From positions 1 through 64,000 of IMG/VR virus record IMGVR_UViG_3300033146_005596: 64,000 bases of DNA. The stretch is one strand, 5' to 3'. Below, piece by piece: positions 2,949-44,777 of this stretch (position 1 is the stretch's first letter; the number at the start of each line of letters is the position of its first letter). The position numbers were made by a program, and so were the translations under genes. Source of the stretch: a virus. Below the pieces are notes generated by a model. The model searched no databases and was not told where the DNA came from. It saw only the letters and a program-made list of their open reading frames with translations.

Positions 2949-4523
2949 ATGGGTAGAGATTATAAGTTTAGTGAAGATATTAGAAAAGATTTACTAAAGG
3001 GTATTGAAATAGTATCAAATGCGGTTAAAGTAACATTGGGCCCAAAAGGTAGAAATGTATTATTGGGCTCTGTTGCTGGAGCACCTATGGTAACCAAAGA
3101 TGGAGTCTCAGTTGCAAAAGAAATTGAGTTGGATTGTCCTTTCCAAAATATGGGTGTTCAGCTATTGCAGGAAGTTGCATCAAAAACAAATGATGATACT
3201 GGAGATGGTACCACAACTTCAACGGTACTGGCTTATGCTATTGCTAGAGATGGAATGAAAGAAGTAGAAAAAGGTTTAAACCCAATTGGTATTAAAAAAG
3301 GTATTGATTTAGCTGTTATTAAAGCGACTAATTATATAAAAGATTTAGCCAAAAGTATAGACAGCAAAGAAGAAATTAAACAAGTAGCAACCATCTCAGC
3401 AAACAATGATAGCTCAATAGGTGAGTTAATTGCAGATGCTATGGAATCTGTCGGAAAAGATGGAGTCATTACAATAGAGAATAGTAATACAGCTAAAACA
3501 TCAATTGATGTAACTGAAGGTATGGAGATTGATAAAGGGTATTTATCTCCATATTTTGCTGGTGATAGTACTAAGGTCGAAATGGAAAATTCTTATATTT
3601 TATTATGCGACCAGAAAATAACCCATATGGAAGAGTTATTACCAGTACTTGGACAAATTGCTCAAGAAGGAAAATCAGTTTTAATCATAGCAGAAGACAT
3701 TGAAGGAGAGGCTTTAGCTACTTTAGTTATGAACTCCCTGAGAGGTACTATAAACGCAGTCGCTATAAAAGCTCCTAGCTTTGGGGATTATCAAGCAGCT
3801 ATACTTGAGGATATTGCTATTTTGACAGGAGCACAAGTTATATCTGAAAGGTATGGATTAAAACTAAAAGAAGCAAACCTAGACTTGCTTGGAAAAGCAA
3901 GTAAAGTAAAGGTTGAAGCAAACTCCACAACTATTGTAGATGGTTTTAATATACCAGAGGTTTTAGCAACTAGGATTGATTCTATCAAAAAAGAAATGGG
4001 GGACTGTACTTCAAATCATGATACTGAACAGCTCCAAAGTAGACTAGCAAAATTAACTGGGGGTATAGCTGTTATAAAAGTTGGTGCCAACACCGAGACA
4101 GAACTTGTTGAGAAAAAACATCGAGTTGAAGATGCTCTCTCTGCTACTAGAGCTGCCATTGAAGAGGGAATTGTATCCGGTGGGGGTTTAACTTTACTCA
4201 GGGCTAGTGCTAATTTAGATATTGATGGAGAGTTAACCTCGGAAGAAGAGGCTGGTTTTAGAATTATAAAAAAAGCATTACTTGAGCCTATGAAACAAAT
4301 AGCTAGTAATGCTGGTAGAAATGGTGAGAGTATAATCGCTACAGGGCTTGAGGAAAAAAATGGAATTGGCTATAATGCCTTGACTGGTAATTGGGTTGAT
4401 ATGATAAAAGCAGGAATAATAGACCCAGCTAAAGTCACACGATGTGCTCTTGAAAATGCTGCCTCAATTGCTTCTTTAGTTTTAACAACAGAGTGTGCTA
4501 TAGCTCCTCCTAAGCTAGACTAA
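2949..4523 (+). CDS. groEL: GroEL-type (group I) chaperonin, 524 aa
   Basis: Full-length group I chaperonin (bacterial GroEL is about 548 residues). It has the ATP-binding TLGPKGRN at 29-36, GDGTTT at 85-90, the apical domain in the middle and the ELVEKKHRVEDALSATRAA segment carrying the catalytic Asp. The C-terminal GGM tail of cellular GroEL is absent; the protein ends APPKLD. No GroES gene lies nearby. Phage-encoded GroELs are known in some giant phages (for example phage EL), where they work without a co-chaperonin; the same is inferred here. It has its own late-type promoter and faces away from the early array. It probably folds virion or replication proteins. Confidence 0.97.
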   Translation: MGRDYKFSEDIRKDLLKGIEIVSNAVKVTLGPKGRNVLLGSVAGAPMVTKDGVSVAKEIELDCPFQNMGVQLLQEVASKTNDDTGDGTTTSTVLAYAIARDGMKEVEKGLNPIGIKKGIDLAVIKATNYIKDLAKSIDSKEEIKQVATISANNDSSIGELIADAMESVGKDGVITIENSNTAKTSIDVTEGMEIDKGYLSPYFAGDSTKVEMENSYILLCDQKITHMEELLPVLGQIAQEGKSVLIIAEDIEGEALATLVMNSLRGTINAVAIKAPSFGDYQAAILEDIAILTGAQVISERYGLKLKEANLDLLGKASKVKVEANSTTIVDGFNIPEVLATRIDSIKKEMGDCTSNHDTEQLQSRLAKLTGGIAVIKVGANTETELVEKKHRVEDALSATRAAIEEGIVSGGGLTLLRASANLDIDGELTSEEEAGFRIIKKALLEPMKQIASNAGRNGESIIATGLEEKNGIGYNALTGNWVDMIKAGIIDPAKVTRCALENAASIASLVLTTECAIAPPKLD

Positions 4524-10197: not shown

Positions 10198-11250
10198 TTA
10201 TTCCATTGATGCTAAGATTGATTTTCTGAACTCATCAGTAGGATCATAAGCTTTGATGATTGTCTTAACATGTCCAAGATATTTAATATCATCAGAAGAC
10301 TCTAGCCACTTGATAATTAGAAATACTACTTCATCAGCCCGACAAACTTTCAAGAACTTAACAATGTTATTCTTTTGAGTCATAGTAGTTTCATCGACTT
10401 TATACTCAGCAAAATCATGAATTAGTGATGATTTCTTGGAAGCAGGAACCGACTTAACTAGCTTTTTAACATCAGCCCAGTTCTCAACAATGTCCTCAAC
10501 CGTAACCATAGCAGTTTCTTCAAGATAAGTCTTGAAAGCCATTGCTCCAGTACCAACATAATTAAAACCAGCTTCAATAACCTCATTCATTAAATCATTA
10601 GTACTAGGGCTATCTCCTAATACTGACTTAAGATAATTTGATAAATTAGTCCAACTTCTATATGAAGCTGTTGCATCTGAGTTTTCAGAGCTTTCAAAGA
10701 TTTTACCGGGACGAGCCTCAAGAAAATCAACTACTTGACTTAGGACTTTTCCATCAGCCCATTTTTTCCAATCATTAAACTCTAAAACATGCCTGACTGG
10801 AACTAGACGATTCATTAGTGCAGTACCAAGTTCTTCAGTACTTCCTTCATCTGAAGAACCATTTCCAGCGCAACAGAAGTAAACCTCATCATTGAATGCA
10901 AACTCAGTTCCAATAGTTCTCTCGTTCAAAATCTGAAGACTAGCATTTAGAGTAGCTACAGATGCTCTATCAATCTCGTCAAAGAATATAAGAGTTGGTT
11001 GGTCATTTGCTTTTACCAACATTTTAGGTAAAGCCCATTCTACTACCGTGGTTCCTTTATAATCGATAGGTCGAGGTATACCAGCTAAATCTTCTGAAGC
11101 TAGTTGTCCAAGGCGTAGGTCTATAAAGTTCCAGCTATTTCTATCTGCAATCTCTCTAACTATTGCAGATTTTCCTGAACCCGGAACTCCAGTTATGAAT
11201 AATACACCAGCTTTACTCTTAATAATCTTTTCATAAGTTTCAATTTTCAT
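10198..11250 (-). CDS. MoxR-type AAA+ ATPase, 350 aa
   Basis: Walker A GVPGSGKS at 21-28, Walker B LIFFDEID at ~90, then an NASLQILNERTIG segment and a sensor CAGNGSS, as in the MoxR/CbbQ branch. These ATPases remodel partner complexes together with a VWA-domain protein through a MIDAS metal site. A fitting partner (metallopeptidase + VWA) is at 35446-36786 behind the same promoter class. The start at 11250 is chosen because GGAG is seven bases upstream; the ATG at 11256 is too close. The ~160 C-terminal residues after the core are unrecognised. Confidence 0.88.
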   Translation of the reverse strand: MKIETYEKIIKSKAGVLFITGVPGSGKSAIVREIADRNSWNFIDLRLGQLASEDLAGIPRPIDYKGTTVVEWALPKMLVKANDQPTLIFFDEIDRASVATLNASLQILNERTIGTEFAFNDEVYFCCAGNGSSDEGSTEELGTALMNRLVPVRHVLEFNDWKKWADGKVLSQVVDFLEARPGKIFESSENSDATASYRSWTNLSNYLKSVLGDSPSTNDLMNEVIEAGFNYVGTGAMAFKTYLEETAMVTVEDIVENWADVKKLVKSVPASKKSSLIHDFAEYKVDETTMTQKNNIVKFLKVCRADEVVFLIIKWLESSDDIKYLGHVKTIIKAYDPTDEFRKSILASME

Positions 11251-11308
11251 TTTCATTCTCCATAGTAACCAGTTTAACTTGAGTGTCTTACTCGCTGATT
11301 ACATATAT

Positions 11309-14555: not shown

Positions 14556-15380
14556 CTAATCTCCAAACTCTATTTCTTTTCCGGTACCATACATTTCTTT
14601 AGGTCCATTATATCCTCTAATATCTGTAACAACTCCATCAACTGTTATGTTAGTGGTACCATACTCTGGAAAAGGTTTTTCGGCAATAGCACATATTTCT
14701 TGTATTACTGACTCAGCTGTATTTTTAGGTAAAGCCCAACTCATAGAATCATGTACTGACCCAACTAAGTAACCATCAATTTCATTTTCTTGCAAATAAT
14801 TGTCAATAGCAACTATTGCTCGCATTACAAGCACAGACTCAAAGTTTTGAACATCAGTATTAGCTGCTGTATTATTGATTCCAGCAAATATTCTACTATT
14901 CAGCCTATCATCATCTTCACCTTTTAGTATCATTTCAGGAAAATGCCTGAAAGCTCCGTGGTAGCTTCGTATGAAGCCGTCACGTGAAGCGTTGTTTACA
15001 CTCTCTCGTAACCTCCTACCAAAGCCCGGATATGCAGCAAAAAACTTATTCTTCATGTCAATAGCAACAGCTTTTTGTTTTAAGTACAGCAGTGTTTCAG
15101 AGCCTCTTTGATTCTGGGTTAACATATCTAATATGTTTTCAAGGTCATTTTCTTCTATGTATTTGTTACAGTCTTCCATGCTCCAGGTATTGGCCAGAGC
15201 AATCTTAACAAAGGTTGCAGGTTGTGCACCGAACAACAAACCAAAATTACAATTATGTGTTAGATAACCAGCTTTAGTGGAATTCTGTCGTATTATTAAC
15301 TCGTGGTCTTCTACATTCAAGCTATGAACTGACTCTTTGTTTTCTAGCATTTTAATGCTATTTATTTTTACTCTCTTCAT
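14556..15380 (-). CDS. family A DNA polymerase C-terminal part preceded by a C-intein, 274 aa
   Basis: Residues 1-43 are a C-intein: block F VHSLNVEDHELI and block G ending GYLTHN, followed by Cys44 as first extein residue. The extein starts CNFGLLFGAQPATF, the second half of polymerase motif B, and contains a helix leading to NTAANTDVQNFES, then VGSVHDSMSW (motif C, catalytic Asp). The exonuclease domain, motif A and the start of motif B are absent. The matching N-intein is at 22398-22823, on the other strand. Trans-splicing would give RKNAKQ-CNFGLLFG, a perfect motif B. No ribosome site: the ATG abuts CCTTATTATAATAAT, so a leaderless mRNA is likely. Confidence 0.9.
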   Translation of the reverse strand: MKRVKINSIKMLENKESVHSLNVEDHELIIRQNSTKAGYLTHNCNFGLLFGAQPATFVKIALANTWSMEDCNKYIEENDLENILDMLTQNQRGSETLLYLKQKAVAIDMKNKFFAAYPGFGRRLRESVNNASRDGFIRSYHGAFRHFPEMILKGEDDDRLNSRIFAGINNTAANTDVQNFESVLVMRAIVAIDNYLQENEIDGYLVGSVHDSMSWALPKNTAESVIQEICAIAEKPFPEYGTTNITVDGVVTDIRGYNGPKEMYGTGKEIEFGD

Positions 15381-15395
15381 ATTATTATAATAAGG
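15381..15395 (-). promoter_or_regulatory. middle promoter, leaderless (C-intein polymerase fragment)
   Basis: Minus strand ACCTTATTATAATAATATG. The 19 bases including the ATG are identical to those at the N-intein gene (22382-22400). The element overlaps the last codons and stop of the gene at 15385. Confidence 0.65.
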
Positions 15396-15759
15396 TCAAA
15401 AGTAACATTTTTAAATTATTTTTATAAATATTTTCAAAATTCAAAAGTTCCACATCACAAAAGTCTACGGGCTTAACCTTGCACATGTCATAGTCAAGTA
15501 TTTCAGTATAGTGGTACAGCTCATAGTCTGTCATATCATAGCCACCTGTTAAAACTTGCACAGGCCTATCCTTTCTTACTTTTTCTATTTTTTTAAGAGC
15601 TCTTTTATACCTTTTATTTTTTATAAGTATTAAGGTATATTTCCCACTGTCTTCTAAAAAGACGAAAAGCCAGTCGTTTACCTTAACAGTAAAACGAGCT
15701 CGCTTTTCAACCTCTTGTGTATGGTCTATTTCAAATTGGCCTATACTGCTTTCTTCCAC
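15385..15759 (-). CDS. hypothetical protein, 124 aa
   Basis: Not recognised. Starts with GTG at 15759 within the end of the small gene at 15741-15908; a coupled start is likely. Mixed alpha/beta, basic centre (KNKRYKRALKKIEKVRKDR), ends in a hydrophobic run KMLLLTLL. The last codons form the promoter of the polymerase fragment. Confidence 0.65.
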   Translation of the reverse strand: MEESSIGQFEIDHTQEVEKRARFTVKVNDWLFVFLEDSGKYTLILIKNKRYKRALKKIEKVRKDRPVQVLTGGYDMTDYELYHYTEILDYDMCKVKPVDFCDVELLNFENIYKNNLKMLLLTLL

Positions 15760-15908
15760 TTTATTACATTCCTATTTTCAGACAACCATATAGTCCAAGC
15801 TTTTTGGTCATTTACAATTATGGCCCAGATATTATCCCTTAAATGTTTCCTAGCAAATGGTTCTGTAATAAACTTTTTACCTGGAAGATTTTCAACTAAG
15901 TAATACAT
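15741..15908 (-). CDS. hypothetical small protein, 55 aa
   Basis: Begins MYYLVENLPGKKFITEPFAR and has a Trp-rich second half (DNIWAIIVNDQKAWTIW). AAGGGG lies upstream, and a late/middle-like ACTTATTTAATA element is at about 15923-15934 on the minus strand. It overlaps the next gene by 19 bases. Not recognised. Confidence 0.6.
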   Translation of the reverse strand: MYYLVENLPGKKFITEPFARKHLRDNIWAIIVNDQKAWTIWLSENRNVIKWKKAV

Positions 15909-15967
15909 TGTAAGCAATCCCCTTATATTAAATAAGTCTTTATTGCTTTTTAACTTGCATTAGAAAG

Positions 15968-17359
15968 TTAATCGTCTTTTTCTATATCATATACTTTAAA
16001 TATTGGGCCGTTGAACATATAATCCATTCTGGTACCAATTTTGCCAGATGAGTTTTTAAGCACTGATATTTCCATAATATCGTCAAGGAGGTCAGTCTCT
16101 TCTAAATCGCCAAGGTACCTATCTGCATAGAACTTCGGTCTAAAAACAGATAATACTAGTCTTGCCCTTTCTCCTAAAGCAGCAGCATTTTTAATATCAT
16201 TAAACCCACCTCTCAGCTTGTCAATATCCTCAAGGGAAGTAATCTCTGAGCTATCAGCATTTCTGTTAAACTGCACAACCCCAAAAATATGGCAATTTTC
16301 AGATTTTGCTAAAGCATTTAAATCATTAACCGCAATTTCCATCTGGACTGGTACCGAACTACCAGCATTTTGTCCTGACATGAAATCTTTAACTTGTGTT
16401 AATAAGTCAATAAATACTAGCACATAGTCATTACCAGTTCTTTGTTTATACTCACGGATTAGCTGTTCTAACTTTATTAGGTCTAACTTAGGATTATCAA
16501 TTACATAAAAGTTTTCATTATCTTCCAGCTCTTTTCTTTGCTGCTCAACTTTTTTAAGGATAGGTGCTAAGTCCATTCCAGTTTTGTAGAACTCACTGAT
16601 TGGTATTTCAGTACGCATCGCCATTAATCTATCATATGTATCTTCTGAGCTCATTTCTAATGTTACATAAATACAAGGCTGATTCATATTTATAAGAGCA
16701 TTGACTAGGTTTAGAGTATAGGTTGATTTACCAGAACCGGATGAGCCAGATAAAATAGTAATAGCTCCTGGGTATGCGCCTTTAAAAACCTCTTTGTCCA
16801 GCTGCTTATTACCAAAAGTATACCTTTTTCCTAGTTGTCTATCCTCTAATACTTTCTTATATTCAGTACCCCAGTCTTGAATTGATTTTAAGTATTCAGA
16901 TGAGTCTCCATTCATTATTTTAGTGCTATCTGATAAAACTTTTCCAATAGCAGTCTGGTCAATAGTACCATTTTTTTTGGATAGTTCCTTTAAGAAAACT
17001 TGTGCCTGAGCTTTTAAGTTCTCTTTAATTCTAGCAGCTTTCAATGTGCTAACTACATCTTGATATTTAGTACCATCATTGTCCAAAGATACTATTCGGT
17101 CTATTAAAGAAGCTTCCACCTCAAAGTTTATCTCATTAGCTCTTTGTAATAACGATGATGCTGTAATTGGTATATTTTCGTGGTGTAATTGAGCTATCGC
17201 TTCATAAACATCTTTAGGTAATTTATGAATTAATAGTTCTTTATCAATGCCACTATCTGCTGTGTATATTAGTTTTGGATTATTATAAATAAGATGAAGA
17301 AGCCTCATCTCTGCTACTATAATGTAGTCTGTATTATCTCGTATTTGTTCACTGCTCAA
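15968..17359 (-). CDS. DnaB-like replicative helicase, 463 aa
   Basis: Hexameric 5'-3' helicase of the replisome. An N-terminal helical domain (residues ~10-115) is followed by a linker and a RecA-fold core with Walker A GSSGSGKST at 205-213 and Walker B LVFIDLLTQV near 310, then GVVQFNRNAD and DLRGGFNDIKNAAALGERAR (arginine finger region). Length is typical for DnaB. The start is TTG at 17359, nine bases after AAGGAG. The ribosome site lies in a perfect 14-bp inverted repeat with the promoter (17363-17399). A helicase loader gene lies two genes upstream. Confidence 0.93.
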   Translation of the reverse strand: MSSEQIRDNTDYIIVAEMRLLHLIYNNPKLIYTADSGIDKELLIHKLPKDVYEAIAQLHHENIPITASSLLQRANEINFEVEASLIDRIVSLDNDGTKYQDVVSTLKAARIKENLKAQAQVFLKELSKKNGTIDQTAIGKVLSDSTKIMNGDSSEYLKSIQDWGTEYKKVLEDRQLGKRYTFGNKQLDKEVFKGAYPGAITILSGSSGSGKSTYTLNLVNALINMNQPCIYVTLEMSSEDTYDRLMAMRTEIPISEFYKTGMDLAPILKKVEQQRKELEDNENFYVIDNPKLDLIKLEQLIREYKQRTGNDYVLVFIDLLTQVKDFMSGQNAGSSVPVQMEIAVNDLNALAKSENCHIFGVVQFNRNADSSEITSLEDIDKLRGGFNDIKNAAALGERARLVLSVFRPKFYADRYLGDLEETDLLDDIMEISVLKNSSGKIGTRMDYMFNGPIFKVYDIEKDD

Positions 17360-17362
17360 TTT

Positions 17363-17399
17363 GTAAATCTCCTTATATTATTATAATAAGGAGATTTAC
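17363..17399 (-). promoter_or_regulatory. middle promoter in a perfect 14-bp inverted repeat that pairs with the dnaB ribosome site
   Basis: Arms GTAAATCTCCTTAT (17363-17376) and ATAAGGAGATTTAC (17386-17399). On the minus strand the right arm and loop are the promoter CTTATTATAATAAT and the left arm is the ribosome site. RNA reading through from 17415-18062 can fold and hide AAGGAG; RNA started here lacks the upstream arm. Confidence 0.7.
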
Positions 17400-17414
17400 C
17401 GGATTTCTTACTTT

Positions 17415-18062
17415 TTATATTAAATTTAATTCCCTTAATTTTCTATTAGCTGCTTCACTCCAAGCCATACGGCCATAAACATTATTAGGCGCAAACTGAA
17501 CCTCTGCTTTACCTTCTACTAAAGAAAAAGGCCTGTTATTTATTAAAGTTGCATACTTAGCTTTCACTCCAAACTCTCTTTTAGAATAAGGTATTTCAAC
17601 ATCTTTGAATGGCCAAGCACCTTCTTTGGTACCAATTAGTTTTCCGCTATTTCCAAAAGGAATAGATAATATTGCATCTTGGTCATACTCTTCACCCAAT
17701 TGCTTTAGCACTTTTTCTAATTCGTTATTGTCATCGCCATCAACAGTAGTATTAACAACCCAAAAAGCAGGTTCCTTAACAGGAATTTCTTCCAGAGCAT
17801 CAGATTTAAGATTTTTCCCCCATTCATAGTCTGGGGGCTTGTAGTTTTCAATATAAAAACCAGATACTTTAGTAACCCCAAAGCCTAACTTTAATAATAG
17901 TCCTTTAAGCTCCTCCTGTTTCTGTCGGTTAGCTGCATAAGTTCTTTCATCTCTCCAAGCAGTTATTGCTCCGCAAGCATGCTTTTCCATAGCTTCAAAA
18001 GCTCGTGATAAACTTGACTCTTTCATTGCTTCTTGGTCTAAAAACCTCTGTCTCAAACTCAT
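17415..18062 (-). CDS. hypothetical protein, possible DUF3293-like, 215 aa
   Basis: The segment ITAWRDERTYAANRQKQEELKG, then GFGVTKVSGFYIE, then an E-x-FWVVN strand and LGEEYDQDAILS, recalls a phage/bacterial family (DUF3293 type): N..R...L...L.. followed by E.sf.v and y.Qda.l. The activity of that family is unknown. Ribosome site AAAAGGAG. It lies between the helicase and its loader in a replication operon, so a replication or RNA-related role is only inferred from position. Confidence 0.6.
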   Translation of the reverse strand: MSLRQRFLDQEAMKESSLSRAFEAMEKHACGAITAWRDERTYAANRQKQEELKGLLLKLGFGVTKVSGFYIENYKPPDYEWGKNLKSDALEEIPVKEPAFWVVNTTVDGDDNNELEKVLKQLGEEYDQDAILSIPFGNSGKLIGTKEGAWPFKDVEIPYSKREFGVKAKYATLINNRPFSLVEGKAEVQFAPNNVYGRMAWSEAANRKLRELNLI

Positions 18063-18076
18063 AGTATTTTCTCCTT

Positions 18077-18805
18077 TTAGCCAAAGATTGACTTTATATC
18101 AAACTGTTTGCAGTGCTCTAAATAGTTATCCTCAAATTTAAGATAACAGCCATTCAAAGCACAGTTTCTATGCATTAAGTCCTGTAGCGAAACACTAAAA
18201 TTATTTTGATGTATTCCACTTATTGCTACATTTGAAATAAAAATATTACTTTTTCCATAGGCCTGGATTCTCTCTCTAACAAAATCGTCTAAGAAAGATA
18301 GCTGGTAACCAGACTTATAAATTGCTAGTTTATTTTTATCAAATGACTCATCTATAATAAGTAAGTCTGCTTTTTTTAGTATGTTTATTCTATCTGAGTT
18401 ATTGTTTATAAAATCTGGGAGAAGCAAATCAACTAGTCGTTTCATTGTTATATACTCCACAGTATATTTTTGTTTTAAAAGTTTGTGGGCAACCCATGCA
18501 GCAATAGTTGTTTTCTGGGTACCATTCCCACCATAAAAGTATAATGTTTCTGACTTAAACCTCTTATAGTTATCTGTAAACTCAAGTAGTTTAGGTATAT
18601 TCTTATTTGTATCTAAGCCTTTATAGGATTTTTCTAAATCAAACTGAGGTATAAAATTAGAATATGGTATATTTGATTTCCTCATTTTTATTTCTAGCAG
18701 TTGTGATTCACGCCATTTCTTTTTACATACACATTCTTTAACTGTATTCTCATCTATTTTAATAATTCCATTGTTGCATTTGTTACAACTTCTAAAAGCT
18801 ACCAT
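18077..18805 (-). CDS. DnaC-like helicase loader, 242 aa
   Basis: The ATG at 18805 (MVAFRSCNKC) has AGAAGGAG nine bases upstream; the open frame continues to 18922 but lacks a good start. A Cys-rich N-terminus (CNKC at 7-10, CVCKK near 27) could bind zinc. The ATPase core has a P-loop GGNGTQKTT, in which Gln replaces the usual Gly of DnaC-type GGNGTGKT, and Walker B LLIIDESFD. It probably loads the DnaB-like helicase encoded two genes downstream. A hairpin at 18842-18874 separates it from the gene upstream. Confidence 0.82.
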   Translation of the reverse strand: MVAFRSCNKCNNGIIKIDENTVKECVCKKKWRESQLLEIKMRKSNIPYSNFIPQFDLEKSYKGLDTNKNIPKLLEFTDNYKRFKSETLYFYGGNGTQKTTIAAWVAHKLLKQKYTVEYITMKRLVDLLLPDFINNNSDRINILKKADLLIIDESFDKNKLAIYKSGYQLSFLDDFVRERIQAYGKSNIFISNVAISGIHQNNFSVSLQDLMHRNCALNGCYLKFEDNYLEHCKQFDIKSIFG

Positions 18806-18841
18806 TTTGCTATCTCCTTCTATATAACATTTGCGTAAAAT

Positions 18842-18874
18842 GGTGCCGAATAAGCTTTGGCTTAATCCGGCACC
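18842..18874 (-). terminator. strong hairpin between ssDNA-binding and helicase loader genes
   Basis: GGTGCCG/CGGCACC stem extended by AATAAGC/GCTTAAT with a short loop. On the minus strand it is followed only by ATTTTACGC, so it may be a partial terminator or RNA-processing element. Just after it lie TTTACGCA and GTTATATA, parts of an early promoter but with 7 instead of 19 bp between them. Confidence 0.5.
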
Positions 18875-18894
18875 CAAAAACAGGAGTCTAATTT

Positions 18895-20163
18895 TTAAAA
18901 CTCTTGGCCACATCTGGGACAAACAAAGTTTAGCTCAATATCAGAAATAGCTCCACAAACTGGACAGGCTGCGGGTGAATTACCCTCAAAATAGTCTATT
19001 CGAGTTTCATCTGCAAATTTGACATTATCTTTTTCAGCTTGAGTCATTTTATCCCAGCCCTTAAGTGCTGAGGTATCAACAGCTGGTGCTGACTCAACTG
19101 GCTTTCTAGTAGGTACTTCCCTAGTTGAGACTTCAGCTTCAGCTGGAGCTTCAGAAGTTGATGTTACTGGTGCAGCGGTACCAACTTCCTCATTTAGCTT
19201 TTGCATTTCTTTAGGCTCATTCTCTTTAGCATTTGCTTCAGACTCCACAGTCTCTGCATCAACAAGTTCCTTGAGCTCTTCCAAGAAATTTGTGCCTAAA
19301 GCAATATCAATTTGGCTAATCTTTTTCTTAAGGCGGTTATACAACTTTGTAGCTTTTGAAAAGCCATAGACTTTTTCAATGTTTACTTTTTTCCAGGAAA
19401 GCTCTTCTTCAGAAAGAGGCCCTTCAACAACATACTGCTTTTTATCCTCTGGAACTTCCTCCATGTGCTTTTCAGCATTGATAACTCTATAAGGATTTTC
19501 TTTAAGTCCTAGCCTTTCAACTCCAACATCATAGTTTTTCCAGTCGCCATAGTACTGAAATAGATTATGAGCGATTGGTCCTAGAAATCCATAAGCAGGT
19601 ACTCCAGTATCTGCGAATACTCTTCCATCAGGAAGTGTGTTGATATTTTTGCTCAAAATCATCAACTGCTTTTTTTCTTTATGCCAATCCATCTGCTCAC
19701 GGTCTATAACGTTAACAATTACAACTTCTTGTCCACCCCAACCTCTATCCCACATTCCTTGGGGAGTTTTGGAACTGAAACCATTCTTTGTTACCATCTT
19801 CAAAATGTCTTTGTGGGTCTTTTCAAGCTTAAGAATCTTTTTACCATCAACCCAGTCCGATTCAGTAACTCTATTAAGTATCTTCCACATGATATGGTCT
19901 ACTGACTGAGGGTCTTCTTTGGTAGGAAAAATATACCTGAACTTTTTACCATTATCCCCAACAATCATAGTTGTTCTAACGGTTCTAGCACAATACTCAT
20001 CTTTATTAGAGTTTGGTGCTCCACTTACAAATCTTAGAATCTTTGTTGTATTTTTTTCAAGCCCTGAATAAAAAATCTCTTCATAACTTCCAGTCTTACC
20101 TGATGATTTAGGCTTGTTCTCTTCCTGCTTTACTTGTGCGACGTACGCTTCAAAATCGTCCAT
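18895..20163 (-). CDS. putative ssDNA-binding replication protein with C-terminal zinc ribbon, 422 aa
   Basis: An N-terminal acidic helix and Lys/Gly linker lead into a ~170-residue mixed domain (from about 40), then a helical part. A low-complexity Ala/Pro/Glu region follows (EAPAEAEVSTREVPTRKP), and the C-terminus is a zinc ribbon with CPVCG and CPRCG. This layout and its place at the head of the helicase/loader operon suggest the replisome ssDNA-binding protein. The OB fold is not demonstrable by eye, so another DNA-binding role is possible. Ribosome site AAGGAG 12 bases upstream. Confidence 0.5.
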   Translation of the reverse strand: MDDFEAYVAQVKQEENKPKSSGKTGSYEEIFYSGLEKNTTKILRFVSGAPNSNKDEYCARTVRTTMIVGDNGKKFRYIFPTKEDPQSVDHIMWKILNRVTESDWVDGKKILKLEKTHKDILKMVTKNGFSSKTPQGMWDRGWGGQEVVIVNVIDREQMDWHKEKKQLMILSKNINTLPDGRVFADTGVPAYGFLGPIAHNLFQYYGDWKNYDVGVERLGLKENPYRVINAEKHMEEVPEDKKQYVVEGPLSEEELSWKKVNIEKVYGFSKATKLYNRLKKKISQIDIALGTNFLEELKELVDAETVESEANAKENEPKEMQKLNEEVGTAAPVTSTSEAPAEAEVSTREVPTRKPVESAPAVDTSALKGWDKMTQAEKDNVKFADETRIDYFEGNSPAACPVCGAISDIELNFVCPRCGQEF

Positions 20164-20272
20164 ACTATTATGGTTCTCCTTGTTCCTATTACTTTCTAAT
20201 AGGTTTTTCTATTGGTGTGTCAAAACTAAAATTATTATAACTTCTATAACTTAATTTTAGTAGCTACTTACT

Positions 20273-20285
20273 ATTATATAATAAG
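20273..20285 (-). promoter_or_regulatory. middle promoter (ssDNA-binding/helicase operon)
   Basis: Minus strand CCTTATTATATAATAG, a two-base variant of the middle element, ~110 bp before the gene start. Confidence 0.45.
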
Positions 20286-20312
20286 GCGTTTTTCTGTATT
20301 TCTTACAAGACC

Positions 20313-22301
20313 TTATAAAATAATTTCTCCATTTACAACCTTCACAACCTGGCAATTATCCGTACCAGTTAAAATATCAATAACTTTTTCCTTATGGGTT
20401 ATCACAATAACTTGTTGAAAGTCCTTTAAATTAGATAATAAGGCGTAAAACTTTTCTGAGTTCTCCATATCAGCTGCTGAATCGATCTCATCCAATACTA
20501 ATATTTCTATGTTAAACATCTTTGCTAGAGAGGCTTGAAAAGCTAGGGATATAAGCTCAGATTCAAACCCAGAAGCATTTGAAACTTTTGCCCATATTCC
20601 ATTATTTAAGGGTGAATATAAGAAATCGATACCTTTCTTATTAGAAGTTAACTTTACTGGAAATGAAGCTTTAACCTCATTGATAAACCTGTTCATAGAG
20701 TTTTCCAGAACAGTACAAGCTTTCATTATTGCAAAGTTTGGTATGGTAATTTCTATAATATTTTTAGCGGTTAACATATCCTCAATTTTACTATCTATCT
20801 CTTTGATTTCCTTTTTCAGTTTTAATACTTCTTTTTTATTTTTTCGCTTGTCCAACAAAATCTTTTTATTAAGCTTCTCATATAGGTTATTCTTTTCAAT
20901 TTTAGCTTGCTCAGTTTTTAAGTCAATACCTTGAACCTCTAATTTTGCTTTAAGCTCTTTTAATTCTTTGGTACCAGAAAATTCAGCCTTTTCCAAGTCT
21001 TTTAAATTCTTTAGCTCTTTTTCTAAAAAAGATAGGTTGTCAGTTACTGATTTTGTAGCTTCAAATATATCTATATTCAATAACTTTTCTTGTGCTTCAA
21101 TCTCTGTTTTTACTTCAGCTATTCTTTTATTTAATGGCTCAATGCTCTCTTCTAAAACTGTTACTTTTTCAATGTTTTTTGTTAAAACATTTATTTTTGC
21201 TGCAGAACTCTTAATATTTACTTCAAACGCAGATATATAGCTTTTCTTTTCAGAAATCAAATCAGCTAAGTTTTCAACAGATTGTTTACATACTGAGCAT
21301 TTACCATCATGTAAAAAGGTCAAATCATTCTTTAAAGTTTTAATATGAGCTTTTGTATTAGCTAGTATTGCTTTTTCATCTTCCTTTTCTGATTTCAGTA
21401 TTTTACTAGAATCAGCATTTTCAAGAGCGTCTAAAACCTGTTGTAGGCTTAATTTGAGGCCTGATTGCTCGGAAGTTTTATTAGAAATAATTAACTGTAC
21501 ATTATTAGCTTTTGAGATTAAGTTGTTGAGCCGATTTGTATTTTCAAATATTTGTTGCTCGAGGCCATCTTTTTTAATTTTATTATTCTCCACATTAGCC
21601 TGATAGTTATATTCTATTTTCTGAGTCTCTAAATCTTTTACTCTCTTTGCTAAACTATTGATGGAAGACTCTAACCTTTTTATTTGTACCTCAGTTTTAA
21701 CATTTTCTAGTATATGCTCCTTAAACTCTAACCCAGCTATATGTTCAGACTTACTAGCAATTTTTATACTATTATCTCTTGTATCTTGTATATCAGAGTT
21801 AAGCTTAGATACTGGGTCTACAAAATTAAAGCTGATTACCTTCTTTAGAAGTTCCCTTCTTTCTGAGGGTGACATATCAGAAATATTTTGTGAGTTCTGA
21901 TGACTAAATATAATTTTATCTATAAAGTTAATATCAATTAGCTGTTTGAGCATTCTCTTAGCTTCTGAATTTTTATATTCTTTTCCTTTATACTTTATAA
22001 ACTTACCGCCACCTCCGGTGCTTGACTTTTCAGGAACAATTCTTGTCCTTATGAGCATTGGCTCATTATGTACTTCTAGCAATAACTCAGATTCACAATA
22101 ATTGGTACCATGTTTTATATACTCTTTATATGAGCCAGATCGTCTGTAGTCTGATAAACACAAAGCAATACCTTGTAAAACTGTACTTTTACCTGAGCCA
22201 TTCCTGCCTATTATTAAAGTAAATAAATTCTTATCTAGCTCAATTTCAGCATGGTCAATTCGCCCAAAGTTTGTTAATGTTATCTTATTTAATCTCAGCA
22301 T
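20313..22301 (-). CDS. SbcC/Rad50-type (T4 gp46-like) recombination ATPase, 662 aa
   Basis: SMC-type ATPase: Walker A GRNGSGKST at 32-40, long coiled coils on both sides of a zinc hook (CSVC in the middle), and C-terminal LVLDEIDSAAD as Walker B/D-loop. The size is closer to T4 gp46 (~560) than to cellular SbcC (~1050). It pairs with the SbcD/gp47-like nuclease at 45918-46880 to resect DNA ends for recombination-dependent replication. A middle promoter variant at 22322-22334 and AGGAGAT precede it. Confidence 0.92.
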   Translation of the reverse strand: MLRLNKITLTNFGRIDHAEIELDKNLFTLIIGRNGSGKSTVLQGIALCLSDYRRSGSYKEYIKHGTNYCESELLLEVHNEPMLIRTRIVPEKSSTGGGGKFIKYKGKEYKNSEAKRMLKQLIDINFIDKIIFSHQNSQNISDMSPSERRELLKKVISFNFVDPVSKLNSDIQDTRDNSIKIASKSEHIAGLEFKEHILENVKTEVQIKRLESSINSLAKRVKDLETQKIEYNYQANVENNKIKKDGLEQQIFENTNRLNNLISKANNVQLIISNKTSEQSGLKLSLQQVLDALENADSSKILKSEKEDEKAILANTKAHIKTLKNDLTFLHDGKCSVCKQSVENLADLISEKKSYISAFEVNIKSSAAKINVLTKNIEKVTVLEESIEPLNKRIAEVKTEIEAQEKLLNIDIFEATKSVTDNLSFLEKELKNLKDLEKAEFSGTKELKELKAKLEVQGIDLKTEQAKIEKNNLYEKLNKKILLDKRKNKKEVLKLKKEIKEIDSKIEDMLTAKNIIEITIPNFAIMKACTVLENSMNRFINEVKASFPVKLTSNKKGIDFLYSPLNNGIWAKVSNASGFESELISLAFQASLAKMFNIEILVLDEIDSAADMENSEKFYALLSNLKDFQQVIVITHKEKVIDILTGTDNCQVVKVVNGEIIL

Positions 22302-22321
22302 AACTATTTATATCTCCTATA

Positions 22322-22334
22322 CTACTATAATAAG
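22322..22334 (-). promoter_or_regulatory. middle promoter (SbcC/gp46)
   Basis: Minus strand ACCTTATTATAGTAGT, back to back with the N-intein promoter 50 bp away on the other strand. Confidence 0.55.
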
Positions 22335-22382
22335 GTGGAAAACAAGATTTTTAATTTATTTTGTTAAAAAGTATATGTTTCA

Positions 22383-22397
22383 CCTTATTATAATAAT
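22383..22397 (+). promoter_or_regulatory. middle promoter, leaderless (N-intein polymerase fragment)
   Basis: ACCTTATTATAATAATATG with the ATG as its last three bases; no ribosome site upstream. Confidence 0.65.
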
Positions 22398-22823
22398 ATG
22401 ATAACGATAAAAAAAGAAAAGAAAAACAGGCCTATTACTGAGCAAGAGTTTAATATTCTTAAAGAGACTAAACCATTTAAGGACTTAAGAAAAAATGCAA
22501 AGCAATGTTTTCCAGTAACAGCTAATACAGAAGTATTGACAGATATTGGGTATATTAATCTAGCACAAATTATTGATAAAATTGATACATCTTGGCTTGG
22601 TTCAGCTAAGGATTTTATAAAGATTATTGGCCGTGATGGTAAACCAAAAAAAGTATTAGGTACTATCAAAGAGGATAACCACTATATAATAGAGTTTAGT
22701 CTTGCAAACGGAGATATACTCAGATATTCTTGGGCTCATTTATGCCCTATTATTAGAGATGATGTTGAAATGTTGGTACCAGCAATTGATGTTCAAAGTA
22801 CAGATGAGTTCTTAGAATTTTAG
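22398..22823 (+). CDS. family A DNA polymerase middle fragment with N-intein, 141 aa
   Basis: Residues 1-36 are extein, ending DLRKNAKQ, which is the first half of polymerase motif B (R..AK). Residue Cys37 starts an N-intein: block A CFPVTANTEVLTDIGYINL, and block B ILRYSWAHLCPI with its His. The 105-residue N-intein plus the 43-residue C-intein at 14556-15380 give a typical mini-intein of 148. The joined extein of ~267 residues would carry motifs B and C but not motif A or the exonuclease; upstream of the ATG there is no alternative start, so at least one further subunit must be encoded elsewhere. Leaderless. Confidence 0.9.
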   Translation: MITIKKEKKNRPITEQEFNILKETKPFKDLRKNAKQCFPVTANTEVLTDIGYINLAQIIDKIDTSWLGSAKDFIKIIGRDGKPKKVLGTIKEDNHYIIEFSLANGDILRYSWAHLCPIIRDDVEMLVPAIDVQSTDEFLEF

Positions 22824-35445: not shown

Positions 35446-36786
35446 TTACTCTTTTGGAATTATAAAAGATTTAACATTTTTTCCAACGATTTCTGGTAAT
35501 TTTTGAGTGCAAACTACTAATGCTTGTTTTTTATGATTTGAAAAATTCAGAGTATCAACATAACCATCAGATAGTAAGATGGTAGGATTCTTACTAAACT
35601 TTTCATTTACTAAATCAATGGCTGGTTGTAGGTTAGTACCTCCGCAGCCTTTCTGAGTTAATTTCTGAAGCTCTTTATAAGACTTAATAGTTTTTACTAA
35701 GTTTATATTAGAATCAATCATAATTAAGTTTATAGTAACCTCTTGTTTAAACAATATTCCTAAGACCTTCTCAAAATCTGAGTTCTTGCTAGAAAAAGCT
35801 CCACTCATTGAACCACTGCTGTCTACAATAGCGTTAATCATGTTACCTTCTTTTCTACGCCCCTTGAGCATAGGATTTCGTCTGTTATATCTTGCATAAG
35901 TACCAACCTGATGAGTACCTAAAAGTCCAGAAGCAGCTAATTTTATTTTTTTCAAGTAGTTCGTTTTAGTCTTATAAAGAGTATTTATAAGCTTTTCACT
36001 ATTTCCACTCAAAATACCTTTTAGTCTAGCTTCGTTTATTACTGACTTAACAAACTCTTCTTGAAAAGCTTCAGGAACTGTTGACTCAATATGCTCGTCA
36101 AAAGACTTAGGACTTTGCTTGGTACTACTACCATTTACCTTGCTACCTTTTTGGTCAGAGTCATTTCCAGACTGCCCTTCCTGGCTCTCATTACCTGAGC
36201 CCGAGCTAGAGCCCTTGCCAGAGCCCGAGCTAGAGCCCTTGCCAGAGCCCGAGCTAGAGCCCTTGCCAGAGCCCTTGCCATCTTTTGATGAAGAGCCTTT
36301 TCCTTTTTTTTCATCTTGAGAATTTTCTTCATTCCATTTATAAAGAGCCTCCAAGATTTCTAGTCCGTTATAATCTTTTGGAATTTCATAGATACTTTCT
36401 GAAGGTTTTTTTGTTTTATGAGAATAATCATTGATAATTGTAGTATTTATAATCATATCAGCAGCGATATTAGCTTTTTCATGGTCAAAGCCCATTCTAT
36501 TAGCCCTTGATATATGATTTGATATTAAATGCATCATCTCGTGAATAATTAAAAAGTTTACTTGCTCATCGTCTAAGCTATTAACAAACTCAGGATTATA
36601 AATAAATTGAGGGCCTTTCGGAGTAAAACATACTCCAGCAGTTTCAATTGACTTTGTACTTTGAAAGGTACATCTTATTAAAAATTCATAGAGAAAGGAA
36701 TTGTTTATAACTAGGAATTGCGCCGATTTTTCTAATTTTTCATTCCTTATAAAGTTTATAGGTATTATAGATTCATATTTAACCAT
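35446..36786 (-). CDS. metallopeptidase-like + VWA domain protein (MoxR partner), 446 aa
   Basis: The N-terminal domain has HEMMHLISNH at 82-91 (HExxH zinc-metallopeptidase motif). A low-complexity Gly/Ser/Lys linker follows, then a C-terminal VWA-like domain with the MIDAS motif DSSGSMSG. This DUF2201-type architecture commonly pairs with MoxR AAA+ ATPases; the phage's MoxR gene is at 10198-11250. The ATG at 36786 has AAGGAG seven bases upstream; an upstream in-frame start lies in the promoter. The linker is encoded by 24-bp tandem repeats. Role inferred: remodelling or processing of a host or phage complex early in infection. Confidence 0.85.
   Translation of the reverse strand: MVKYESIIPINFIRNEKLEKSAQFLVINNSFLYEFLIRCTFQSTKSIETAGVCFTPKGPQFIYNPEFVNSLDDEQVNFLIIHEMMHLISNHISRANRMGFDHEKANIAADMIINTTIINDYSHKTKKPSESIYEIPKDYNGLEILEALYKWNEENSQDEKKGKGSSSKDGKGSGKGSSSGSGKGSSSGSGKGSSSGSGNESQEGQSGNDSDQKGSKVNGSSTKQSPKSFDEHIESTVPEAFQEEFVKSVINEARLKGILSGNSEKLINTLYKTKTNYLKKIKLAASGLLGTHQVGTYARYNRRNPMLKGRRKEGNMINAIVDSSGSMSGAFSSKNSDFEKVLGILFKQEVTINLIMIDSNINLVKTIKSYKELQKLTQKGCGGTNLQPAIDLVNEKFSKNPTILLSDGYVDTLNFSNHKKQALVVCTQKLPEIVGKNVKSFIIPKE
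36197..36268. repeat. three perfect 24-bp tandem repeats
   Basis: Each unit begins GAGCCCGAGCTAGAGCCC and encodes SSSGSGKG on the minus strand. G+C is far above the surrounding sequence. A half unit follows to 36280. Confidence 0.9.
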
Positions 36787-36806
36787 TTTTAGCTCCTTAC
36801 ATATAT

Positions 36807-36837
36807 AATATAACAAAGTTTTAATATAGTGCGTAAA
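36807..36837 (-). promoter_or_regulatory. early promoter P7 (VWA protein)
   Basis: Minus strand TTTACG, 19 bp, TATATT; same class as the MoxR gene promoter. Confidence 0.7.
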
Positions 36838-42114: not shown

Positions 42115-42145
42115 TTATCTCCTATGTTATTATAATAAGGGATAA
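42115..42145 (-). promoter_or_regulatory. middle promoter with ribosome-site-pairing hairpin (clamp loader)
   Basis: On the minus strand TTATCCCTTAT can pair with ATAGGAGATAA (10 of 11 positions, one G-U). Promoter core CTTATTATAATAA at 42139-42127. Confidence 0.55.
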
Positions 42146-42420: not shown

Positions 42421-42445
42421 TCCCTTATTATAATAACATAGGAGA
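42421..42445 (+). promoter_or_regulatory. middle promoter with ribosome-site-pairing hairpin (primase)
   Basis: CTTATTATAATAA at 42424-42436; TCCCTTAT can pair with ATAGGAGA (one mismatch, one G-U). Confidence 0.5.
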
Positions 42446-44764: not shown

Positions 44765-44777
44765 CTTATTATAATAA
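44765..44777 (+). promoter_or_regulatory. middle promoter (44795 gene)
   Basis: CTTATTATAATAA, 17 nt before the ATG, with AGGAGA between. Confidence 0.6.

Follow-up and report, generated by a model that had tools for sequence, protein, structure and literature searches.

Evidence for a phage family A DNA polymerase divided among three unlinked genes, two of them bearing a putative split intein at motif B

The virus record IMGVR_UViG_3300033146_005596 of IMG/VR (C1 in the coordinates below) comprises 126,585 bases, and the window analysed here is its first 64 kilobases (kb). Two genes of the window, designated M and C, and a third gene outside it, designated N, probably specify a single family A DNA polymerase from three unlinked loci, in which M and C would be joined by trans-splicing and N would be bound non-covalently. 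All three pieces are open reading frames with similarity to family A polymerases (Table 1). Taken together, the sequences of N, M and C are shown to make up a complete polymerase of family A with no gap, and this appears to be the sole recognisable DNA polymerase of the phage.

The extein residues of M, MITIKKEKKNRPITEQEFNILKETKPFKDLRKNAKQ (36 residues, of which approximately 11–36 can be aligned with intact polymerases), end midway in the O-helix and are followed by an N-intein. In C, the sequence CNFGLLFGAQ stands directly after the partner C-intein, with motif C (VHDS) farther on. When M and C are joined and the intein is removed, motif B of family A is restored as RKNAKQCNFGLLFG (RKNAKQ|CNFGLLFG) in a product of 267 residues. 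All of the class-1 splice residues are present at this junction, namely Cys1, the block B His, the penultimate His, the Asn and Cys+1, from which we infer that M and C would be trans-spliced. Against a profile built from 12 phage inteins, the N-intein of M reaches 14.4 bits, a value attained by none of 1000 shuffled sequences, and across all six frames of the record it is the only significant N-intein besides two terminase inteins, which had themselves served to build the profile used. C matches DNA_pol_A (PF00476) with 39.7 bits (cut-off 34.3), and its predicted structure, with a predicted local distance difference test score (pLDDT) mostly above 80 for residues 50–250, shows the Pol I fold by comparison with Bst DNA polymerase I (Foldseek E-value 2e-8). 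The predicted structure of M was of low confidence (pLDDT 45) and was not used as evidence. The two genes start 7.0 kb apart on opposite strands, with other genes between them. The original prediction had placed a split intein exactly at motif B, with halves about 7 kb apart on opposite strands and a 267-residue product lacking motif A and the exonuclease; the splice residues, the N-intein profiles and the restored motif B support this placement, the rest was borne out, and the coordinates, strands and lengths given for both pieces proved correct on re-reading. Moreover, on sequence comparison the M|C insertion point is independently an intein site in the intact PolA genes of another phage lineage (L012, L013 and L014), where a cis LAGLIDADG intein occupies the identical position (KAAKV|C...HN|CNFGMLYG). 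Unlike the genes studied here, each of these is one gene with an endonuclease-bearing intein, encoding 1164 residues where complete.

It had further been predicted that a partner carrying the 3'-5' exonuclease and motif A, and ending near the DIH segment, would exist elsewhere in the genome. A six-frame search of the record with PF00476 hit two places only, C and C1:97475-98164, and the latter belongs to the expected partner, N. This protein combines a 3'-5' exonuclease domain (PF01612) with columns 4–204 of DNA_pol_A (55.6 bits; cut-off 34.3), carries motif A (DYSGLQLR) and ADIHSRTGFQVFA, and its polymerase part ends after DIHSRTGFQVFA. A second complete polymerase, which had been considered as a counter-argument, did not emerge: no family B or C DNA polymerase was detected by profile search of the whole record, and PF00476 matched only at C and N. 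In 34 distinct intact phage polymerases, the distance between DIH and the motif B Arg ranges from 19 to 29 residues. N supplies 9 residues of this span (to VFA) and M supplies 20 (from RPITEQEF), which add up to 29, equal to the closest intact type; no polymerase residues are therefore missing between N and M. The residues in excess at the break are 49 in N (SNKTFN...IKSI) and about 10 in M (MITIKKEKKN). Of the proposal that at least three polypeptides form the enzyme, the third piece has been found, and to judge from the N|M junction its joining would most probably be non-covalent.

The three genes share a promoter-like box, CTTATTATAATA, also given as CCTTATTATAATA, of which the record contains 13 exact copies compared with none expected under a first-order model. 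With up to one mismatch, 21 copies are found in the window against 3.2 expected, some of them representing one site read on both strands. The box is usually followed by AATATAAGGAGAT, and its copies mostly lie 2–31 nucleotides before genes. It precedes M and C, is located 21 nucleotides upstream of N, and is also present ahead of the genes for the DnaB helicase, the clamp loader, an NrdG-like protein and, with one mismatch, an SMC-like protein. Since the box is common to N, M, C and replication genes, the three pieces are likely co-expressed with the latter, and a box held in common also speaks for an origin of the three loci in one phage. The start codons (ATG) of M and C appear to lie within the usual 3' flank of the box, the usual AGGAGAT is absent, and no ribosome-binding site is apparent; the mRNAs of M and C may therefore be leaderless.

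A check of 15 exonuclease and polymerase positions against 19 homologues showed that 13 keep the usual residue, including both metal-binding Asp residues, the Arg, Lys and Phe of motif B, the His-Asp of motif C and all of the exonuclease residues checked. Several observations weigh against the proposed assembly. (i) The remaining two positions form the steric-gate pair, in which the motif A Glu is replaced by Gln in N and the motif B Tyr by Phe in C; Glu is kept in 19/19 homologues and Gln found in 0/19, and Phe occurs in 1/19. (ii) M aligns over nearly the full length of the NCBIfam model intein_Nterm (TIGR01445), with 17–19 bits and E-values of 0.003–0.008, but remains under the curated cut-off of 24.5. 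(iii) The C-intein is statistically weak (6.2 bits; 3/2000 shuffles, or 87/2000 with THNC kept), and what identifies it is chiefly the HN|C ending, together with the exact way in which motif B is restored. (iv) The record is linear and ends without a terminal repeat, and may for that reason be incomplete. (v) Selection on N, M and C is not measurable, because no close relative was found by single-protein scans with C, N and GroEL, by scanning for the pattern DYSGLQLRIAG and for that of the terminase intein junction, or by searching phage genomes with M and C by tblastn. A scan of bacterial genomes for the pattern HNCNFG gave a single match, in an aspartokinase-like gene, which was regarded as chance.

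In Pol I the motif A Glu and the motif B Tyr contact each other, and here the pair is split over two genes, N (L003:4234-6255) and C (15251-14559). The Gln/Phe combination is variation, as family A membership does not need Glu and Tyr, and it may alter sugar selectivity. The same replacements, together with the three-way fragmentation and the scattering of the genes, would fit a decaying polymerase remnant in a phage that uses a host polymerase. We consider such decay unlikely, since all three frames are open, the catalytic and exonuclease residues listed above are kept, a phage promoter-like box precedes each of the pieces, and the phage itself encodes a helicase, a clamp loader and a ligase.

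At the N|M junction, no C-intein was found ahead of M in any upstream frame; the start of M adjoins the promoter-like box, and a divergent gene lies beyond the box. A search of the whole record likewise revealed no orphan C-intein. The last 29 residues of N, TLLSEQTVETQRGRVKAKDLKETDTIKSI, resemble intein block A, being identical at 12 of 25 ungapped positions to block A in the split intein of the phage's own terminase (0/2000 shuffles). This tail is probably an intein remnant; the grading is held at this level because support is modest under a best-of-proteome null (7/200) and the general intein profile gives 11/1000. Alternatively, both junctions could be spliced, the tail of N acting as an N-intein of atypical shortness; its long C-intein partner, attached to a separate copy of the middle fragment, would then lie outside the record. 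The terminase-like block A, the existence of natural N-inteins as short as 25 residues (AceL-TerL) and the lack of terminal repeats in a perhaps incomplete record are consistent with such an arrangement. Nevertheless, M, the exact complement of N, has no C-intein, none is left unpaired in the record, and the likeness of the tail is only modest under the proteome-wide null; double splicing seems quite improbable. Splicing of N to M is impossible from the content of the record, and non-covalent association of N with the spliced M-C product is therefore most likely, as far as the sequence allows. Treating the N tail as intein block B instead of block A was not significant, and no RNA family match above threshold was obtained near the N|M break for an intron. 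Within the proteome, the N tail has its second-best match in an unusual stretch, TVGNEETLVKLKDLENEDIKKS, before the SCCRL motif of the anaerobic ribonucleotide reductase NrdD (L003:8721-10868, minus strand).

Two further alternatives concern the integrity of the pieces. That M and C stay unspliced, with the intein halves serving solely as a dimerisation pair and the enzyme consisting of three separate chains, would accord with the weak profile score of the C-intein, but it is very unlikely given that the full set of splice residues is there and that the intein would lodge in the active-site O-helix, between the motif B Lys and Phe. An assembly chimera, with N taken from another phage and the true first piece elsewhere, is conceivable for a metagenomic virus record but scarcely credible, as the promoter-like box is found record-wide, including ahead of N, M and C, the G+C of the pieces is similar (0.31–0.36), and the three complement each other without a gap.

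In the three-gene assembly favoured here, N would provide the 3'-5' exonuclease, the thumb, the motif A half of the palm, and the fingers as far as the helix that follows DIH. M would provide the next ~25 residues to the middle of the O-helix, followed by the class-1 N-intein, and C the matching C-intein, the remaining O-helix, the fingers and the palm with motif C. After covalent joining of M and C by trans-splicing, N would dock on the product, contacting the fingers loop and spanning the palm, and so complete the active enzyme; the motif A aspartate of N and the motif C aspartate of C would thereby meet from separate chains. On balance we favour a replicative polymerase whose active site is built from three genes by two mechanisms, an intein weld in the O-helix and a non-covalent fit across the palm, and in which splicing would gate the onset of activity. 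The N|M break probably goes back to another interruption, likely that of a former intein. How the arrangement arose is a matter of speculation: the intein of motif B may have become split, its two halves being dispersed, and the other interruption, near the tip of the fingers, may have lost the portion downstream of it. If correct, this assembly would illustrate the extent to which a core replication enzyme can be fragmented and still be kept, with splicing and non-covalent reassembly in one polymerase whose catalytic aspartates reside on separate gene products; gene fragmentation by mobile elements and splicing as activation would become testable in a small system, and a design for split polymerases in biotechnology is suggested.

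Split class-1 inteins with distant halves are known from cyanobacterial dnaE, where the halves are on opposite strands, and from Pol B of Nanoarchaeum equitans. Both belong to other polymerase families and consist of two pieces whose splicing gives the full enzyme, whereas the splice product predicted here would contain neither motif A nor the exonuclease. Fractured split-intein genes, attributed to Dassa et al. in 2009, reportedly have halves that flank an endonuclease gene; the polymerase is likewise broken at a split intein, but its M and C halves are not adjacent, being scattered, and no endonuclease gene lies between them. Among crAss-like phages, genomes are known whose core genes are crowded with inteins and introns. 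The claim of the original prediction that distant halves on opposite strands were new does not hold in view of dnaE, and a phage split-intein polymerase is also known. This is PolB1 of Aes123, among T4-like Aeromonas phages, which differs in being a family B enzyme with a cysteine-less intein and for which no description of a third piece was found (PMC11923092). The split gp43A/43B polymerase of Aeromonas phage 25 and the split NrdA of phage Aeh1 are active as non-covalent assemblies, but they comprise two pieces, involve no intein splicing in the same enzyme and belong to different families (PMC2988022). The literature search yielded no description of one polymerase combining splicing with non-covalent assembly, and on this ground the combination is judged to be new, its separate elements being already known.

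Table 1. Positions of the polymerase pieces, intein halves and promoter-like boxes (window coordinates unless prefixed)
Feature	Coordinates	Strand	Remarks
M, whole gene	22398-22823	+	141 residues; 36 polymerase residues + 105-residue N-intein
M extein	22398..22505	+	36 residues ending RKNAKQ; first half of O-helix / motif B
M class-1 N-intein	22506..22820	+	105 residues; Cys1, block B His (SWAH); two profiles
C, whole gene	15380-14556	-	274 residues
C C-intein	15252..15380	-	43 residues; ends ..GYLTHN; weak by profile, junction supports
C extein	14559..15251	-	231 residues; CNFGLLFG (second half of motif B) to motif C VHDS
N	C1:96233-98254 = L003:4234-6255	+	673 residues; outside window, 73 kb away
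Box CTTATTATAATA	22384..22395	+	2 nucleotides ahead of M ATG
Box CTTATTATAATA	15383..15394	-	2 nucleotides ahead of C ATG
Further box sites in window	17379-17390, 42128-42139, 42424-42435, 44765-44776		

In the sequences compared, motif B gives the impression of a mobile-element hot spot. Unrelated phage polA genes (L017, L019, L023, L034 and L038) are interrupted, no more than a few codons away from the motif B point, by intron-like inserts that bear endonucleases; Rfam recognised no intron RNA in the four loci tested (L017, L023, L034 and L038).

The large terminase subunit of this phage is itself a fractured gene, with halves flanking an endonuclease gene (L005:12930-11371, 11322-9427 and 9434-8067, minus strand; C1:90930-86067). 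In its first piece, the Walker A motif holds a complete class-3-like intein, after which comes a class-3 N-intein; the middle is a homing-endonuclease gene of 631 residues (phrog_3339, E-value 5e-119), and the last piece comprises a C-intein (TIGR01443, above cut-off) and the remainder of the terminase. The presence of the class-3 W, C and T suggests a naturally split class-3 intein, of which only one was reported in a 2020 paper (PMC7891396).

Other genes in the window include a phage-encoded GroEL (2949-4523, plus strand; phrog_5725, E-value 4e-158) and a match to the S-adenosylmethionine lyase family, a known phage anti-restriction type (17415-18062, minus strand; PF23780, E-value 7e-8). 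A DUF2201 metallopeptidase/VWA-type protein (35446-36816, minus strand) and a phage ATPase of phrog_1297 (10198-11256, minus strand) together resemble a MoxR/VWA pair.
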